DNA of 64,000 nt from Thermoflexus hugenholtzii JAD2 (GTDB lineage: Bacteria > Chloroflexota > Dehalococcoidia > UBA2979): contig CAMDNW010000001.1 of assembly GCA_945903275.1 (NCBI GenBank), forward strand, positions 1 to 64,000. The letters are read 5' to 3'. Position numbers and translations under genes: made by a program. Positions 5,678-14,573 of this stretch are shown one piece after another (the stretch's first letter is position 1; the number at the start of each line of letters is the position of its first letter). Under the pieces are notes generated by a model that saw nothing but the letters and a program-made list of their open reading frames with translations, made no database searches and was not told where the DNA came from.

Positions 5678-6412
5678 TTAGTCCCGGCGGTAGAGCGCGC
5701 CAGTGACGACGCCTTCGCCTTCGGGGAGCAGGCTGCCGTCGGACATCTCGACGACGCGGTCGGCGTAGTCGACGATGAGCGGGTCGTGGGTCGCCATGAT
5801 GATGGTGATCCCGTCGCGCGACGCCTCGCGCAGCAGCCCGAAGATCTGTGCGCCGGTGACGGTATCGAGTTCGCCCGTGGGTTCGTCGGCGATCAGAAGC
5901 GCGGGATGATTGGCGAGGGCGCGGGCAACGGCGACGCGCTGCTGCTCGCCGCCTGAGAGTTCGTAGGGGCGGTGGCCGGCGCGCGCGCTGAGACCGACGA
6001 GGCCGAGTAGTTCGGTGGTGCGGCGGGCCTCCTCGCGGCTGCTCACGCCAGCGACGCGCAGCGCGAGGCCGATGTTCTCCGCCGCTGAGAAGAGCGGTAG
6101 CAGACCGAACGACTGGAAGACGAAGCCGATCGAGTGGCGGCGCAACTCGGTCAGTTCAGACTCGCTGGCATCGGTGATGTCACGGCCATCGAGCGACACC
6201 CGGCCGCTATCGGGCTTGTCGAGACCGGCGATCAGGTTCAGCAGTGTGGTCTTGCCGGAGCCGGAACGACCGACGATGGCGAGTAACTGGCCTTTCGGTA
6301 TGGTCAGAGAGACTTCGCGCACGGCATAGACAGTGTGGCCGCCGCCCGTGAAGGCGCGGGAGACGTGGTGTACCTCGACCGCAGTGGGCTGTGGGCCGCG
6401 TGGGGCGGTCAT
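5678..6412 (-). CDS. ABC transporter ATPase, LolD/MacB type
   Basis: 244 residues forming one ABC ATPase domain. Walker A is GRSGSGKTTLLN, Q-loop FVFQSFGLLP, signature LSGGEQQRVAVARAL and Walker B LLIADEPTGELD. The LDxxTG and EPTGELD wording is characteristic of ATPases that power FtsX-type permeases (lipoprotein release, macrolide or antimicrobial-peptide export). The start overlaps the stop of the preceding ATPase by ATGA (6409-6412), so the two are translationally coupled and probably form a pair. It is the last gene of the operon that begins with the giant permease at 10696. Confidence 0.9.
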   Translation of the reverse strand: MTAPRGPQPTAVEVHHVSRAFTGGGHTVYAVREVSLTIPKGQLLAIVGRSGSGKTTLLNLIAGLDKPDSGRVSLDGRDITDASESELTELRRHSIGFVFQSFGLLPLFSAAENIGLALRVAGVSSREEARRTTELLGLVGLSARAGHRPYELSGGEQQRVAVARALANHPALLIADEPTGELDTVTGAQIFGLLREASRDGITIIMATHDPLIVDYADRVVEMSDGSLLPEGEGVVTGALYRRD

Positions 6413-7302
6413 GCGCCAGCCTCGTCATCGGCGTCGCCGGGACGAATCTCGACGTGGTCGCCGTGCAGTTCGAGGCGGGCGCGACCGTGGATGCCGAGGC
6501 GGTCGGTGAACTCGCGCGGGATCTGCATACGCCCGCTGCGGTCGACGAGTGCGAACTCGCGCATCTCCTGTATGCGGTCACGGCGGAATGAACGCGGGCG
6601 GACGAGTTCGGCGCTCGTGCGGCCGTCGCGCATGGTCACCACGCGATCGACGCGCTGCGTGATCGCGCGGTCGTGGGAGACGATGATCACGGTGACGCCG
6701 GTCGCCTCGTTCAGTTGGTGGATCGCGGCGAACACCTCGGTCGCTGTGGCGCTGTCGAGTTCGCCGGTGGGCTCGTCGGCGAGCAGCAGGGGCGGGGTGT
6801 TGGCGAGTGCGACGGCGATGGCAACACGCTGCTGCTCGCCGCCGGAGAGTTGGTGCGAGCGGTGGTCAAACTTATCGCCGAGGCCAACCTGCTCCAGCAG
6901 ATCGGCCGCGCGGGCTGAGGCTTCCTGGCGGCTGATGCCTTCGATGAGTTGGGGCACCTCGACGTTCTCGAGGGCGGTGAGGTACGGGATGAGATTGCGG
7001 CCGGTCTGCTGCCAGACGAAGCCGACCTCGGCGCGGCGGTAGTCGGTGAGTTCGTACTCGGTCATCGTGAGCAGATCGCGCGCGCCGACGCGCACGCGGC
7101 CGGCGGAGGGCTGGTCGAGGCCGGCGAGAATGTTGAGCAGCGTGGACTTACCGGACCCGGAGGCGCCGACGATCGCCATCACCTCGCCCGGGGCGACGGC
7201 GAGGTCGAGGCCGCGCAGCGCGACGACCTCGAGTTCATCGGTCTTGTGGATCTTGAAGACGTCCTCACATAGGACGTAGGCCTCGTCGGGCGATGCGGTC
7301 AC
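6409..7302 (-). CDS. ABC transporter ATPase with C-terminal AbrB-like domain
   Basis: 297 residues from GTG 7302, chosen because GAAGGG lies just upstream and the start falls 4 bp after the permease stop. Residues 1-230 are an MacB/LolD-type ATPase (Walker A GASGSGKSTLLN, signature LSGGEQQRVAIAVAL, Walker B LLLADEPTGELD). The last 45 or so residues read FALVDRSGRMQIPREF followed by TDRLGIHGRARLEL. This is a clear match to the swapped-hairpin SpoVT/AbrB fold normally found in DNA-binding transition-state regulators and antitoxins. The tail may dimerise the ATPase or contact DNA. It pairs with the ATPase at 5678 and serves the FtsX permeases next door. Confidence 0.9.
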   Translation of the reverse strand: MTASPDEAYVLCEDVFKIHKTDELEVVALRGLDLAVAPGEVMAIVGASGSGKSTLLNILAGLDQPSAGRVRVGARDLLTMTEYELTDYRRAEVGFVWQQTGRNLIPYLTALENVEVPQLIEGISRQEASARAADLLEQVGLGDKFDHRSHQLSGGEQQRVAIAVALANTPPLLLADEPTGELDSATATEVFAAIHQLNEATGVTVIIVSHDRAITQRVDRVVTMRDGRTSAELVRPRSFRRDRIQEMREFALVDRSGRMQIPREFTDRLGIHGRARLELHGDHVEIRPGDADDEAGA

Positions 7303-7306
7303 GCGG

Positions 7307-10300
7307 CTACCCTTCGCCGACACGGAGCGCACGGTGGATGGCGAGGCGGACGTAGAGTAGCACCACGGCCCCCATGGTCTGGATGAACGCCGCGCCGAGT
7401 ACAGCCCAGATCACGGCTACGCTGCCCCACGAGATGGCGAGCGCGAATGGCGGCAGCACGGCCGCGCCAGTCTCGCTGACGCCGAACACCTCCATCATGC
7501 GCTGACCGACCTGCAGCCCGACGATGGTGCCAAGGCCCATGCCGGCGATCACGATGACACAGTATTCGAGCGCGACGACCAGGAACACCTGCCGCCGCGA
7601 GAAGCCGAGCGTGCGCAGGATTGCGAACTCCAGCGCGCGCTTTTGCGCGGTGAGGTAGGAGTAGAGCACGAAGCCGATCGCCGAGAGCAGCAGCACCGTC
7701 CCGAACGAGATGGAGAGGATGCCCGCCCAGCCTGCGGCAATCAGCGGGTCTTCGTCGGCGAGGGCACGTTCGCTGGCGGTGTCGCGCAGCGTCTGCGGCT
7801 CCCACTCCACGAGTGCCTCACGTGTACGCACGGGGTCGTCCGAGGCGAACCATGCCTCGTTGAAGGCGATCGGGCGGGTGGCGAGCGCGCCATTCGCGGC
7901 TTCGGCCAGTCGCCTGGCATGTATGACGGCGAAACCGGAGCGGCCGGCGACGTTCGGGTCGTAGGTGGGGAAGAGCTCGAACGTCCCGGCAAGGCGGGCA
8001 TCGAGGTATACGCCGCTCACCAGCAGTTGGAACGTGTCGCCCGTGCGCAGTTCCGCACGGCTGGCCACTGCCTGCGGGAGATACACCGCGGCAGCCTCAC
8101 CGTCGGTCACCGGCCGCAGGCCGCGGTCGCGAGGCGTCACGCGCGTGTCGTTCCACTCGTAGCGGACAGAGGCACTCGCGCCGGTGGGCGCGTCGGGGTC
8201 GGAGCGTGCGGTGTCGGTGGTCCGTTGGGCGCGCTGGCCTTGAATCACCTCGAACTCCGCAGCGGGGAAGGCGTTGATGAGGCGTGCGCCCGCGAATGGG
8301 GCATCGGAGGCGACCGACTCCGTGTTGGGCGCGAGCGGCGGCGCGGCGATATTCGAGGTGTGCAGCGGGCCGAGCAGCGCAACGCCGCGTTGTGCGGTGA
8401 TCGCGCTCTGGGTGGCGAAGTAGACGGCTTCGAGCGTGTACGGCGCGGTGAGGCTGGGCGGCGCGCCGCGTCCGGAAGGCGGGCGGGCAGCCTCGATGGG
8501 TGCGTTGAAGAAGCGCCACTCGCGCGTGGCGGCGTCGGCGGGGCGCGCGACGCCGAGGGTGATGCGCGCGAGGCGGCCGTTGCCGTCACGCAGCGCGGCG
8601 ATGACGCCGACAGGGCCGCGAATGTCGGGGAACTTCGCCCAGACGCCGATCTGCCGCATGTCGTCAGGCAGCGCGACGGTGTTCGCCGGCGGTGCGTTGC
8701 GTGCGAGATTGTCCGCTATCACGGTGAGCGGTTCTGCCGCGAAGTCGTCGCGGAAGTACGCGACTTCGCGGAACGTATCGGGTTCGACGCCGAGCAGCGT
8801 GACCGACTCGTTCTTGCCATTCGCGAGTACCGCACCCTCGGTGCGGATCGCGGGACTGACGGCACGAGCGGGGACGGCGGTGACGGCGCGCAGGAACGCC
8901 TCGTCGCCGCGCTCGAAGAGCGCGCGCATATCGGCGGCGCGCACGTCGGCGCCGACCGGGTAGCGGGCGCGGTCATCGTAGGAGCGGGCGAGCGTGGCGG
9001 AGAACGTCGCGCCGAACATGCCGACGCCGGTGGCGAGCATCAGCATCAGCACGAGGCGGGAATAGTGGCTAGGGTCACGGGCCAACGCTCTCATGCCGAC
9101 GAGCGCCGCCGCACCTGCGACGCGCCCGATCATCCAGGCGAGCAGACGCAGTGCGAGCGGGAAGAGCCGCAGGAAGACTACGCCGACGGTGAGCATCAGC
9201 ACAGTCGGCGTCGCCAGCATGAGCGGGTCGGACTGGCGGCCGCCGAAGACAGTGCGCGTGAAGAGCTGGTCGTCCTGCCGCAGCCGCCAGAACAGTATCG
9301 CCAGCACGACGACGAGGGCGACATCGAGGTAGTAGCGGAGCAGCAGCGGCACCGGACGCGGGCGCGCGGAAGCGCGGCGGAACTCGACGACCGTGCTGCG
9401 CGTCGCGCGCCAGGCAGGGATCATGAACGCACCGAAGGCGAGCAGCGCCCCCGCGATGGCGAAGGCGTAGGCCTGCGTGGACAGGTGCACCTCGAGCGGG
9501 CCGCCGCCCGAGAGCGCGGTGAAGGCGGGCATTGGGCCGAGCGCCGAGATCACGGCGGCGGCGAGCAGCGGCCCGGCGGCTGCGGCGAGCAGCGCGAGGA
9601 TGAAGCCTTCGATCCCGAACTCGAACAGCAACTGGCCAGGACTCGCGCCCCGGCTGCGCAGCACCGCGATCTCCGGCGCTTGTCGCTCGACGAGCATCGT
9701 TGCGACCATCACGAGGTAGTACGCGACGATGCCGCCGATCTGGAGCAGCAGCACGAACAGCGGGATGCGCACGAAGAAAAGACGGTCGTCGAAGGTCTCC
9801 AGCGTCTTCGCCAGCCCGCTCTCCATCGTGACCCTGCGTTCGAACCCGGCGAGCACGCTAGGGAGGGCGGTGACGCCGGTAGCAACGGCCGGAGCATCGC
9901 GCGCATTGAGGGCGCGAGCATCGATGGTGTAGCGGTCGGCATAGGTCGCGGAGGCGGTTGGTGCGCCCGCGGTGAGTGCGGCGAAGAACGCATCCTCCGG
10001 CAGCAGCAGCACGAACTGTTCCCACGACTCCTGTGCGTCCTCGACGACACGGGTCGCGTCTGTCCAGTACGGGTTTCCAGGCTGCGTCACGCGCACGAGG
10101 GCGGCGATCTGCACGAGCATGGGGCGGCGGTCAGTGTCCCACCAGGCGTGCAGCGCCAAGCGGTCGCCGACGCTGACGTTGTTGCGCGTGGCAGTCTCCT
10201 CGCTCAACGCGACGGCGACCGGCCCTTCAGGCGGCTGAGCGGCAAAGGGCAACTCGCCGCGCACGACGGTGAGGTGTGTATCAAGGCCGTCACGGAAGCG

Positions 10301-10696
10301 CAGTTGCGCGCGTGGGCGGCGTAGGTCCTGTTCGTTGACTGCGGCGTTCGGCGCGGTGAGGTAGAACGTCTGGCTGGTGCCTTGTCGCACCACGCCGCCG
10401 ACCGCGCCGGCGAGTGCCTCGCGCACTGCGGCGTCCTCGCGGGCGCTGGATTGGCGGTAGGCCTGCTGGCGCGCGGTCGCCGCCTCGCGGGTGATGCGGA
10501 TGTCCACGTCGTTGGTGGCGCGCGGGTGTTCGAGCGCGTAGCGCAGGCCGAGGTCGCGGATGGCATCGGCGTAGATGGAGGTAGCGGAGAGGATGGCTGA
10601 GGAGATCAGCGCGCCCAGCGCGACGCTGGCGAGCAGCCGCCGGTTCGCGGCCATGCGCCTGATCGCCAGCACCGGGAGAGAACGAAATCGGCCCAC
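7307..10696 (-). CDS. Giant FtsX/MacB-type ABC permease
   Basis: 1129 residues from GTG 10696. One N-terminal membrane helix (residues 13-40) is followed by an extracellular domain containing IYADAIRDLGLRYALEHP. A first FtsX module follows (helix group around residues 310-450), then a helix pair, a second large extracellular domain (about 590-970) and a C-terminal FtsX module ending near 1125. The paralogue at 10735 has the same layout. Two FtsX modules in one chain match a BceB-like 10-helix design. The start is chosen because TACAAT sits 8 nt upstream and no Shine-Dalgarno is present. The cargo is unknown; such permeases usually pull lipoproteins or hydrophobic molecules from the membrane. 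Confidence 0.85.
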   Translation of the reverse strand: MGRFRSLPVLAIRRMAANRRLLASVALGALISSAILSATSIYADAIRDLGLRYALEHPRATNDVDIRITREAATARQQAYRQSSAREDAAVREALAGAVGGVVRQGTSQTFYLTAPNAAVNEQDLRRPRAQLRFRDGLDTHLTVVRGELPFAAQPPEGPVAVALSEETATRNNVSVGDRLALHAWWDTDRRPMLVQIAALVRVTQPGNPYWTDATRVVEDAQESWEQFVLLLPEDAFFAALTAGAPTASATYADRYTIDARALNARDAPAVATGVTALPSVLAGFERRVTMESGLAKTLETFDDRLFFVRIPLFVLLLQIGGIVAYYLVMVATMLVERQAPEIAVLRSRGASPGQLLFEFGIEGFILALLAAAAGPLLAAAVISALGPMPAFTALSGGGPLEVHLSTQAYAFAIAGALLAFGAFMIPAWRATRSTVVEFRRASARPRPVPLLLRYYLDVALVVVLAILFWRLRQDDQLFTRTVFGGRQSDPLMLATPTVLMLTVGVVFLRLFPLALRLLAWMIGRVAGAAALVGMRALARDPSHYSRLVLMLMLATGVGMFGATFSATLARSYDDRARYPVGADVRAADMRALFERGDEAFLRAVTAVPARAVSPAIRTEGAVLANGKNESVTLLGVEPDTFREVAYFRDDFAAEPLTVIADNLARNAPPANTVALPDDMRQIGVWAKFPDIRGPVGVIAALRDGNGRLARITLGVARPADAATREWRFFNAPIEAARPPSGRGAPPSLTAPYTLEAVYFATQSAITAQRGVALLGPLHTSNIAAPPLAPNTESVASDAPFAGARLINAFPAAEFEVIQGQRAQRTTDTARSDPDAPTGASASVRYEWNDTRVTPRDRGLRPVTDGEAAAVYLPQAVASRAELRTGDTFQLLVSGVYLDARLAGTFELFPTYDPNVAGRSGFAVIHARRLAEAANGALATRPIAFNEAWFASDDPVRTREALVEWEPQTLRDTASERALADEDPLIAAGWAGILSISFGTVLLLSAIGFVLYSYLTAQKRALEFAILRTLGFSRRQVFLVVALEYCVIVIAGMGLGTIVGLQVGQRMMEVFGVSETGAAVLPPFALAISWGSVAVIWAVLGAAFIQTMGAVVLLYVRLAIHRALRVGEG

Positions 10697-10734
10697 GAGG
10701 GCGGATTGTACGTGCGGCGCGTAGACTCCGCGCC
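10697..10734. promoter_or_regulatory. Divergent pair of leaderless-type promoters
   Basis: Only 38 bp separate two divergent GTG starts. On the plus strand TAGACT (10722-10727) lies 7 nt before GTG 10735. On the minus strand TACAAT (10705-10710) lies 8 nt before GTG 10696. Neither start has a Shine-Dalgarno. Each -35 region would overlap the opposite -10, so polymerase could probably occupy only one promoter at a time. Confidence 0.6.
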
Positions 10735-13700
10735 GTGGGCACGTTTTCCGCGTTCTGGCTGCTCGCTCGGCACCGTATGCGGGCACACTGGCCGCTGCTT
10801 GCCGCGACTGGCCTCGGCGTGCTGCTGGCCTCGGTGTTGCTGGCCGTGGTGCCCGTCTACGCCGACGCGATGGCCGACCTAGGACTGCGTTACCGGCTGG
10901 AACAAGGCATCGATGATCCCGGCGACCAGGTGCTGCAACTGACGCTCGACGGCTCGCAGCTGGGCGACAGCCGGGATCGCCGCATCCGCGAGGCGATGGA
11001 TGAGGCGACGCGCGCGCGGATCGTCTGGCTCGGCGATGGCCTGCTGGTGGAGGAGCGCTCGCAGCGCATCCAGGCGTCGCTACCGAAGCAGCTGGGGATC
11101 GCGTGGCCTGCGTACCTCGCCGCTATGCCCGGTCTCGCGGAGCACGTCGAGGTTTTAGCAGGGCGGCTGCCGGAAGCGAGTGATCGCGCTGAGGTCGTAC
11201 TGCCCGCAGGCTACGAGCGATACGCGGCCATCGGCGACACGGTCGTGCTCGCGCTGTCGGCGTTTGATGACTGCCCGCGCGTGCCACCTTCGGAAAACCC
11301 TGCCGTCGCGGCGGCCGAGGTGCGCTGCCGCCCGTCGCTCACCGTTGCACCGGAGGGTGCGGCGACGGTGGTTGGCTTCGTGCGCCGCCGCGACGCGAAT
11401 GACGCGCGCTGGCAGTTCTTCGACGCCTCGTGGGCCGTACCGAACGCGCCGAACACTCGCGTCTCGGAGCCGGGAGCGGGCGGACTGCTGCTGATCACGA
11501 CGCCAGAGCAGTACATGGGCGTGATCGCGCAGCGGTTCCCCGAACTGCGTGCACATCACCGGGCAGGTGTGGTGCCCGACCTGCGCGGGCTACGCGTGGC
11601 GGACGTGTCGTATGCGATTGCGGACATCGAAGCATGGCAGCGGGACATTCAGACCACGCTCGGATTGCGTGCAGGCGGCCGTCTCGACCTTGCCAAGCAC
11701 CTGAGCAGCTTCCGCGATGCGCAGACGTTCTCGCGTATCCCGCTGCTGCTGATCTTGTTGCAGGTGGTCGGGGTGATCGTCTTCTACCTTGTGCTGGCGG
11801 CATCGATGCTGGCCGACCGGCGGGCGGACGAGATGAACGTCTATCGCAGTCGGGGTGCCAGCGCTGGACAACTTGCGGGCCTCGCGGCGTTCGAGGCGCT
11901 GTTCATTGCAGTACCCGCTGCGCTGGCGGGGCCATGGATCGCAGTGCGCAGCGTCGCACTGCTCGGGTATTTGCCGGTGTTCGAGCGGAGTACGGGCGGG
12001 GGGCCGCTGCCCGCAGCGGTGACGCCGGAGGCGTACGCCTTCTCCGCTGCCGGCGCCCTGATCTCGGTGGCTGCGATTGCGGCACCGGCATGGGTGATGG
12101 CGCGACGCGGCGTGCTCGATGAACGGCGGGAGCGAGCACGGCCACGCGGGCGGGGCTTCGTGCAGCGATACTTCCTCGATGTCGGCGTGATGATGTTGGC
12201 GGCGGCGCAATTCTGGCAGATATCGCGGCGGGGATCGGTGTTCGACCCGAAGGCGGTAGGTGGCTGGTCGAGCGATCCGCTGTTGATGCTGTTCCCGTTG
12301 GTGCTCACGCTCGCGGTGGCGGCGATGGTGTTGCGGCTGTATGCGCCGCTGTTGCGGTTCACGCTCGTGGCGATCGTGCCGCTGCGTGGGTCGACGGTGG
12401 GCGTGGGGCTGCAGCAGATGGCGCGCGCGCCGGCGACGCACGCGCGCGTGCTGATGCTGCTGGTGATGGCGACCTCGGTCGCGACGTTCGCGGCGTCGTA
12501 CGGCCCGACGGTCAGCCGCTCGCATCGTGACCGTGCGCTATACGAGGTGGGCGCCGACCTGCGCGCGACGCTCGACCAGCCGGGGAGCGACGTGGGCGAG
12601 CGGCTTGCGGCGCTGCGGAAGACTGAGGGCGTCCGCGACGCGACGCTCGTGTACCGAGGCGCGTTGCGTGCACCGACCGGTGGCGAGATTGCGGTCGTGG
12701 GCATCGAAGATCCATCGCGGGCGGGGCCGATGCTCTGGTCGCGCGACGACTTCGCTGCGCAGCCGCTCCCAGCTCTGCTCGACCAGATACAGAACACGGA
12801 GGACGCGCACCTCGGCATCGCGCTACCAGATAATGCCGTCGCGATTCGCATGCACCTGTACGCCGACACGGTGACCGGCCTGATCGGCTTCGCTGCACGC
12901 GTGCGCGACGCTGAGGGCGGCTACCACGAACTGCCGGTGATCGAGTTGCCGGGGCGCCAATGGCGTGAGGTGAACCTTGAGTACCCGCGTGAGTTGTTCG
13001 CGCCGCGCCCGTTGCGGCTTGCGGGCTTTCGACTGCGCGAGGAGAGTTTCGTGCGCCGCGATGGCGCGCTGTTCATCGACGATCTGCGCGCCGTCGATGC
13101 TACGGGTGGGGTGACACTGATCGACGACTTCGAAGTGCCATCGGGCTGGCGCGTCTACACGCAGCCGGGGACGCCCGAGGCGTTCGAAGTCTCCTCGGCG
13201 CGTACGCATGGCGGCGTGCGTGCGGGGCGCTGGTCGTGGGAGACGAGTTTCTCGCAGCGCGAGAGCGTGCTCGCAGCTCCCGACCCGGATGGCGCGCTGC
13301 CCGCGCTGTTCAGCGCGCGGGCGCTGGATGTCCTGCGCGCGCGCGCGGGCGGCGAGGCGCTGGTGGTGCTGGAGAACGGCGTGCGGGTGCCGCTGCGGGT
13401 CGCGGGCGTCGTGGAGATGTTCCCGACCATCGACCCGGCCGCCCCGTTCATCGTGACCGATCGCGTGCGACTGCGTGCGCTGGCGCTGCTCGGCGGATCG
13501 CGTGCGCTGCCGTATGCCACTGAGATGTGGGTGGACACCGAGGACAGCCTGACGCTGCCGGAGCAACGCGCGCTGCTCACACACCTCGCGAACCGGGAAG
13601 AGTCGCCATTGCTGGTCGATGCGGGCGGTATGCTGTTGCGATCAGCGATGCTGGACGACACGCTCGCGGATCCGTCGCTGGTGGCCTCAGGTGCGGGGGT

Positions 13701-14109
13701 GCTGCTGGTGGCAGCGGTGGCGGTGGTGCTGATCGCGGCGGCGGGCTTCGGGATCGCGGTGTTGATTGCGGTGGGTGGGCGCGTCACGGAGTTCGCGGTG
13801 TTACGCGCGCTCGGCGTGAGCGCGCCGCAACTGTTGCGCTCGTTGTTGCTGGAGTGGGGCGTGCTCGCGCTCTGTGGCGGCGTGCTCGGCTTCTTGCTTG
13901 GCCGGCGCATCGCCGATGTCATGCTCACCGCGCTGGAAGTCACTAGCGCAGGTACACGCGTCGTCCCGCCGTTCACGTTGCAGAGCGACTGGCGGGTGAT
14001 CGGCGCGGGCCTTGTAGTCGTCGGCGGCTGCGCGCTGGCGGCGGTGGTGGTCGCGTGGGGTGAGGTGGTGCGGCGGGCGGGGGCGGCGGCGCTGCGCCAC
14101 ACGCAGTAG
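10735..14109 (+). CDS. Giant FtsX/MacB-type ABC permease, paralogue
   Basis: 1124 residues with the same arrangement as the divergent permease. An N-terminal helix is followed by VYADAMADLGLRYRLEQG, an extracellular domain with a disulfide-capable Cys pair, a first FtsX helix group (about 340-460), a helix pair, a large extracellular domain and a C-terminal FtsX module (about 985-1110). Residues roughly 750-850 contain FIDDLRAVDATGG, IDDFEVPSGW and AGRWSWE, resembling a jelly-roll carbohydrate-binding-type fold inserted in the extracellular part. GTG 10735 is preferred because a TAGACT -10 box lies 7 nt away. Together with the other permease and two ATPases it could form a heteromeric exporter. 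Confidence 0.85.
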   Translation: MGTFSAFWLLARHRMRAHWPLLAATGLGVLLASVLLAVVPVYADAMADLGLRYRLEQGIDDPGDQVLQLTLDGSQLGDSRDRRIREAMDEATRARIVWLGDGLLVEERSQRIQASLPKQLGIAWPAYLAAMPGLAEHVEVLAGRLPEASDRAEVVLPAGYERYAAIGDTVVLALSAFDDCPRVPPSENPAVAAAEVRCRPSLTVAPEGAATVVGFVRRRDANDARWQFFDASWAVPNAPNTRVSEPGAGGLLLITTPEQYMGVIAQRFPELRAHHRAGVVPDLRGLRVADVSYAIADIEAWQRDIQTTLGLRAGGRLDLAKHLSSFRDAQTFSRIPLLLILLQVVGVIVFYLVLAASMLADRRADEMNVYRSRGASAGQLAGLAAFEALFIAVPAALAGPWIAVRSVALLGYLPVFERSTGGGPLPAAVTPEAYAFSAAGALISVAAIAAPAWVMARRGVLDERRERARPRGRGFVQRYFLDVGVMMLAAAQFWQISRRGSVFDPKAVGGWSSDPLLMLFPLVLTLAVAAMVLRLYAPLLRFTLVAIVPLRGSTVGVGLQQMARAPATHARVLMLLVMATSVATFAASYGPTVSRSHRDRALYEVGADLRATLDQPGSDVGERLAALRKTEGVRDATLVYRGALRAPTGGEIAVVGIEDPSRAGPMLWSRDDFAAQPLPALLDQIQNTEDAHLGIALPDNAVAIRMHLYADTVTGLIGFAARVRDAEGGYHELPVIELPGRQWREVNLEYPRELFAPRPLRLAGFRLREESFVRRDGALFIDDLRAVDATGGVTLIDDFEVPSGWRVYTQPGTPEAFEVSSARTHGGVRAGRWSWETSFSQRESVLAAPDPDGALPALFSARALDVLRARAGGEALVVLENGVRVPLRVAGVVEMFPTIDPAAPFIVTDRVRLRALALLGGSRALPYATEMWVDTEDSLTLPEQRALLTHLANREESPLLVDAGGMLLRSAMLDDTLADPSLVASGAGVLLVAAVAVVLIAAAGFGIAVLIAVGGRVTEFAVLRALGVSAPQLLRSLLLEWGVLALCGGVLGFLLGRRIADVMLTALEVTSAGTRVVPPFTLQSDWRVIGAGLVVVGGCALAAVVVAWGEVVRRAGAAALRHTQ

Positions 14110-14126: not shown

Positions 14127-14573
14127 CTAGCGGTTCGCGCCTTGCTCGATGCTCGCGGGGATGCGCAGTACAGCGGTCGCGGCGCCATCGCGCACGAACA
14201 CCTGCACGAGGTCGTCGGCGCGTAGGGGAGTGGTAGTGCGGGCGATCGTGAAGAAGCGCTCGGCGCGGGTGTAGCGCAAGGTCAGCGTGCTTTCGGATGA
14301 CGCGATCACCATCGTGCCGCCTGCGACCGAACGTATCGTGCCGCTGCGGAGCGCCTCGCCCTTCAGCCCGCGCGCGCCGTCGAAGCCGGTGAAGCCGCCT
14401 GCTGACCGCACAGTTCCGGCTGAAGCGGGCAGCGCGCCTTCCGCTGAGACGAGCATCAATTGCCGCTCCATTGGCGCGCTGGCGGCCTGCCCGAGGCGGA
14501 TGCCGAGCATCGCGCCGCCGGCCGCCGAGGCCAGCGCGAGGGTCAGCATCGCGATTGTGACGAGCCGCCTCAT
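14127..14573 (-). CDS. Small membrane-anchored exported protein, DUF5666-like
   Basis: 148 residues with an N-terminal hydrophobic anchor (MRRLVTIAMLTLALASAAGG) and an extracytoplasmic beta-rich domain. The domain repeats the pattern SGTIRSVAGGTMVIAS...DLVQVFVRDGAATAVL seen in OB-like DUF5666 modules. Its start overlaps the stop of the upstream gene by ATGA (14570-14573). It is convergent with the giant permease and may be an accessory of that export system; this is inferred from position only. No enzyme motif is visible. Confidence 0.65.
   Translation of the reverse strand: MRRLVTIAMLTLALASAAGGAMLGIRLGQAASAPMERQLMLVSAEGALPASAGTVRSAGGFTGFDGARGLKGEALRSGTIRSVAGGTMVIASSESTLTLRYTRAERFFTIARTTTPLRADDLVQVFVRDGAATAVLRIPASIEQGANR

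Follow-up and report, generated by a model that had tools for sequence, protein, structure and literature searches.

The window analyzed here, a stretch of 64,000 nucleotides from a Dehalococcoidia genome, contains two giant permease genes, A and B, that are transcribed away from each other from start codons lying only 38 bp apart (Table 1). This arrangement raises the question of how both genes are started from so short a region, and whether their closeness couples their expression. A preliminary description had placed two overlapping leaderless promoters in the gap and had proposed that the two permeases may be expressed in alternation. Its reading of the sequence, including the distance between the starts, is exact to the base: on the forward strand GTG 10735 is preceded by TAGACT at a spacing of 7 nt, on the reverse strand GTG 10696 is preceded by TACAAT at 8 nt, and neither direct reading nor a Shine-Dalgarno scan of the window revealed a Shine-Dalgarno sequence before either codon. 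Both genes thus have the features of leaderless genes with an adjacent -10 motif, namely TANNNT at about 6-8 nt and no Shine-Dalgarno. The open frame of A continues to 10786; the alignment of its relatives begins at 10696, and for this reason longer forms of A, starting at 10786 or 10742, were rejected. In the comparison of start regions among relatives, loci with identical start regions were dropped.

Table 1. Coordinates of the features of the divergent permease locus in the window.
Feature	Position	Strand	Basis
ABC ATPase 2 (FtsE/LolD type), 4-nt overlap with ATPase 1	5678..6412	-	PF00005
ABC ATPase 1 (LolD/MacB/YbbA type), 26-nt frame overlap with the 3' end of A	6409..7332	-	PF00005
Permease A (P0001, 1129 aa), two FtsX domains, YbbP-like	7307..10696	-	PF02687 E 8.4e-16, predicted structure
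Intergenic gap, 38 bp, two divergent -10-like boxes	10697..10734		Sequence reading
TACAAT, -10-like box of permease A, 8 nt before GTG	10705..10710	-	TANNNT at 6-9 nt in 26/28 scorable family A genes
TAGACT, -10-like box of permease B, 7 nt before GTG	10722..10727	+	TANNNT at 6-9 nt in 20/21 scorable family B genes
Permease B (P0002, 1124 aa), two FtsX domains, YbbP-like	10735..14109	+	PF02687 E 2.5e-14, predicted structure

The geometry of the gap differs in part from what had been proposed. With a spacer of 16-18 bp, the -35 hexamer of B would lie inside 10698-10705 and that of A inside 10727-10734. Each would then sit in the stretch that separates the -10 box of the other gene from its GTG, sharing at most 1 nt with this box; the -35 zones are therefore not forced onto the opposite -10, as the preliminary description had it. 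In the window these would-be hexamers are G+C-rich and bear no likeness to TTGACA, and a consensus promoter scan of 10500-10950, which is not informative for -10-only promoters, detected no -35/-10 promoter. The two boxes are separated by 11 bp and do not overlap. Across such a short gap the footprints of two polymerases should overlap; thus the description of the promoters as overlapping holds for the footprints and fails for the boxes, while their leaderless nature is supported by the conservation of the boxes.

Indeed, both boxes are widely retained in the family of the window. In counting, candidate starts up to 45 nt away from the aligned one were accepted, for the control spacers as well. 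Among 25 family loci inspected for B, four were not scorable (L014, L018, L027 and L032) and only one of the remaining 21 (L008) lacked TANNNT at 6-9 nt; for A, 30 loci were inspected, two were not scorable (L117 and L128) and two of the remaining 28 (L123 and L124) were misses. B is most often preceded by TACACT or TAGACT, and A by TAGAAT or TACAAT. In the same loci, control spacers of 12-15 nt gave TANNNT in 0/21 B and 0/28 A genes, spacers of 18-21 nt in 1/21 and 0/28, and spacers of 24-27 nt in 1/21 and 7/28, respectively. The seven A matches at the last spacing do not all represent the same box: this applies to two, seen from a later start codon, while three are other TANNNT motifs inside the coding region and the remaining two are L123 and L124, where TANNNT lies 26-27 nt before ATG. 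For these two genes a short-leader promoter is possible, and leaderless A genes are thus not universal in the family.

Searches of 44 genomes identified ten family genomes in which A and B are linked divergently, and both boxes are present in all ten; loss of the TANNNT boxes in close relatives, which had been set beforehand as the result that would speak against the proposal, did not occur. The boxes are also kept where the two genes are unlinked, in 16/18 A and 14/15 B genes of the family; no N-terminus of B was found in 20 unlinked A loci. Within the 45 nt upstream of the family genes, no alignment column exceeds 0.45 bit apart from C and G directly before the box of A, and therefore neither A nor B has a -35 signal in this family. 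Judged on these comparisons, the TANNNT boxes of A and B are not due to chance, and leaderless promoters at the two genes are strongly supported by box conservation; the transcripts themselves would then be leaderless as well.

An alternative is that transcripts start further upstream and carry leaders, TANNNT being kept for some other reason such as the binding of a regulator. The start sites considered here are predicted, and three loci (L033, L034 and L035) have, between the two -10 boxes, an operator-like inverted repeat, GGTGC...GCACC, which is not seen in the gap of the window. However, the distance between box and start is constant at 6-9 nt for both genes, linked or not, and in this genome there is room for a longer leader only if it begins in the promoter or the coding region of the other gene. 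Upstream starts thus seem unlikely.

Starts of this type are not confined to the two permeases. The window and eight further stretches of the same genome, 224 kb in all, were searched with a simple home-made gene caller that gave 178 genes and 1108 candidate starts. The counts of TANNNT at spacers 6 and 7 are 11 and 13, compared with a mean of 2.8 per spacer at 12-39; the 24 occurrences at these two spacers, against 5.6 expected, correspond to a Poisson P of 6e-9. Leaderless-type starts are thus enriched in the sample, so this start mode appears ordinary in this genome. The 224 kb contain 24 divergent neighbour pairs, of which only A/B has boxes at 6-8 nt before both genes. For Chloroflexi, leaderless signals with a TAtaaT pattern were reported in 2011 from four of the 12 genomes surveyed, at an average of 4.7% (PMC3160421); Shine-Dalgarno statistics have been given for Dehalococcoidia and Tepidiformia (PMC10783764). 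In Deinococcus, such -10 motifs are reported to drive leaderless genes, most of which have no classical -35 (PMC12340547). Among the best-matching open-access titles, none concerned this A/B gene pair.

A second aspect of the question is whether the two permeases work together. A and B are paralogues, and both proteins start with VGxF. In the window both ATPase genes are located downstream of A in the same direction and none is found beside B. Searches of 36 family genomes with both proteins gave 23 genomes with both, two with B only (G018 and G023), two with A only (G030 and G033) and nine with neither; Fisher's test gives P 2.8e-5 for this co-occurrence, or 1.1e-3 when the weak A-like fragments of G005 and G019 are included as A, values that overstate significance because related genomes are not independent. 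Of the 30 family A loci, 27 have the homolog of ATPase 1 next to A and 26 that of ATPase 2; in the three loci without ATPase 1, A itself is cut at the contig end. In several genera A remains with the ATPases and B is found elsewhere; in another clade A and B are together and, in G054, the best ATPase pair is about 39 kb away (G054:C5:440937-442573, L140), near a PhoU gene and another ABC ATPase gene. No giant frame surrounds this remote pair, the longest within 11 kb having 486 aa, and a scan of seven frames there, including the two ATPases, found no permease family and left three without any match. The same genome contains further giant permease-like matches on another contig (C4), and the remote ATPases might serve these instead of A and B. 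Gene order is thus broken reciprocally, which suggests that A, B and the two ATPases are one functional set, a linkage compatible both with a single physical heteromer of A and B and with two complexes.

Another small gene lies at 14127-14573 on the reverse strand of the window, convergent with B; its product has no Pfam match, and a homolog is found near B in 15 of 66 named loci. The homolog is convergent with B in 13 of these 15 and also occurs at loci without an A gene; its product is a possible partner of B.

The distance between the two starts proved to be variable. Among the linked family genomes, 38 bp is found only in the window, the others ranging from 58 to 95 bp: five genomes of a second genus have 58-60 bp, and a third genus includes one genome with 77 bp and three with 91-95 bp. 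Correspondingly, the spacing between the boxes at linked family loci is 11, 31-33, 52 or 66-70 bp. Two genomes of the same genus, G001 and G002 (76 and 67% complete), gave no match to A or B.

These distances bear on the possibility that the gap is a switch, at which one promoter is occupied at a time and which is used for alternation between A and B or for a fixed ratio of the two. With 38 bp between the starts and divergent boxes 11 bp apart, footprints should overlap in this genome, and overlap is also likely at the 58-60 bp of the second genus. However, the distance is not conserved in the third genus, and the boxes are retained where the genes are unlinked; being conserved even when the genes are far apart, the promoters look real and not built as an either/or device. 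Moreover, the ATPases are on the side of A only, so that under strict alternation B would be made apart from its probable motor. Finally, five bidirectional promoters of E. coli are reported to show no measurable competition at their weak basal level, while activated ones compete (PMC12825309). Overlapping polymerase sites are thus probable in this genome, where alternating expression is possible, and neither a selected switch nor alternation as a function is supported; as an explanation of the gap, a switch is improbable. If the promoter of A or B were strong or activated, interference would be expected from the geometry, by analogy with the activated E. coli promoters (PMC12825309).

Outside the family the picture changes. 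Almost all of the closest named relatives, Tepidiforma flava among them, carry the title Dehalococcoidia or Chloroflexi, which points to the class Dehalococcoidia for the window, and 41 of 66 named loci with B have an A gene pointing away from it, the others being perhaps cut by contig ends; 42 divergent A/B pairs, window included, were examined. At the 33 linked loci outside the family, B is at most 33% identical to B of the window. TANNNT was found there 5-9 nt before ATG or GTG in 11/33 B and 2/33 A genes, counting start codons within 24 nt of the aligned start and excluding matches farther off or before CTG, and A has a Shine-Dalgarno-like match, by a loose criterion, in 18/33 loci. Leaderless-type starts of both genes together are therefore characteristic mainly of the family of the window; the leaderless-type start of B extends beyond it, to Tepidiforma (L083 and L092). 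In Tepidiforma flava (L092) the B homolog has TACAGT at 8 nt from its ATG.

Other Dehalococcoidia loci contain a different conserved element in the A/B gap, GGGGTATGTTCGACC...CGTAGACTAC, present in 13 of 14 loci with gaps of 174-251 bp between match edges (L063, L065, L067, L070, L073, L075-L077, L079, L080, L082, L084 and L096); L086 retains the second half alone. A pattern search found the element once in G054, once in G069 and not in G070. CGTAGACTAC includes TAGACTA, readable as a -10 (TANNNT) on both strands, and the whole element may be a shared bidirectional promoter or operator. Its occurrence elsewhere in the class lends some plausibility to the idea that in the window, too, one promoter with a symmetric -10 serves both directions, an arrangement known from E. 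coli; this is nonetheless very improbable, since the window has two separate boxes, with no -10 element shared between them, and the predicted starts are about 39 bp apart, against the usual 10, 18 and 23 bp (PMC12825309).

Taken together, the likely explanation is that the gap consists of two independent leaderless sigma70-type promoters placed back to back, whose closeness more probably results from compaction than from a conserved switch. Each promoter would be a -10 element without a recognisable -35, and RNA would start at the GTG or 1-2 bases from it, so that the ribosome would read the start codon at the 5' end of the mRNA. One transcript would lead to permease B; the other, a putative operon, to permease A and then to ATPases 1 and 2. 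A and B would probably share this ATPase pair and be needed together. Given the shortness of the gap in this genome, a polymerase bound to either promoter would also cover its neighbor; since weakness is expected of -10-only promoters, there would probably be little competition. A more far-reaching reading is a Dehalococcoidia-wide type VII ABC machine of two different full-length YbbP-like permeases and two different ATPases, with two leaderless -10-only promoters which in this lineage are so close that the occupancy of one would determine the output of the other and so fix the permease ratio without a regulator; this appears rather doubtful.

The proteins themselves belong to the type VII ABC (FtsX/MacB/Lol) systems, PF02687 matching two stretches of each permease and PF00005 both ATPases. 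AlphaFold models, with mean pLDDT of 81.6 for A and 81.3 for B, have ten long helices in the order 4+2+4, as counted by eye from the predicted secondary structure; the duplicated halves and ten predicted transmembrane helices are those of a YbbP-like single-chain permease. The best Foldseek match of both models is YbbP of E. coli (9ge6_A; E 1.1e-15 for A and 2.0e-14 for B), at 12-13% identity; a second structural search, VIA-align 2, run for B, gave BceB and YbbP tied, with Z 19.9 and 19.5. On these predicted structures, A and B are YbbP-like type VII ABC permeases. Membership in the curated NCBIfam families was rejected, A reaching 36.8 of 362 bits for lolCE and 28.4 of 622 for ADOP, and B 34.2 of 622 for ADOP. 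The nearest models of the two ATPases are LolD, FtsE, MacB and YbbA, all below their cut-offs. Within the second outer domain of B, a part (residues 694-824, about 12814-13206) is similar to a carbohydrate-binding module (4mgq, Z 7.6), at a level that may reflect no more than a common arrangement.

The locus has a twofold significance. It adds comparative support for leaderless -10-only starts in a large and mostly uncultured class for which the earlier survey reported few such starts (PMC3160421), and these starts affect the annotation of start codons in Dehalococcoidia. It also reveals a conserved four-gene transporter set, two YbbP-like permeases and two ATPases with no known substrate, which is present in the complete genome of Tepidiforma flava.

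As for known promoters, the two starts resemble those of leaderless genes in Deinococcus-Thermus and Actinobacteria, described as having TANNNT a few bases before the start, no Shine-Dalgarno and usually no -35 (PMC12340547, PMC3160421); differently from these, the window comes from a 66% GC Dehalococcoidia genome and has two such promoters back to back. The bidirectional promoters of E. coli likewise direct divergent transcription from a short region, where simultaneous binding in both directions is barred if the sites overlap; however, they share one -10, with starts mostly 10, 18 or 23 bp apart, whereas the window has two boxes and starts about 39 bp apart (PMC12825309).

As for known transporters, A, B and their ATPases have the FtsX-type permease fold and the ATPase type in common with LolCDE, MacB and BceAB, and the curated NCBIfam cut-offs for LolCE and LolD are not reached by the window proteins. 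LolC, LolE and MacB contain one FtsX half per chain, and BceB has one large outer domain. No lipase or esterase family of the kind to which a TesA-like hydrolase partner would belong was found among 16 window frames scanned. Also among the closest known systems is YbbAP(-TesA), a type VII ABC system of E. coli with a single-chain permease of duplicated halves, ten transmembrane helices and a LolD/MacB-like ATPase (PMC12646458). It differs from the window in that the latter encodes two permeases of about 1125 aa, the YbbP chain having 804, and two different ATPases, with 12-13% identity between the permeases of the two systems. Each of A and B alone has the two-FtsX architecture of YbbP, in which one permease is combined with two ATPases (PMC12646458).
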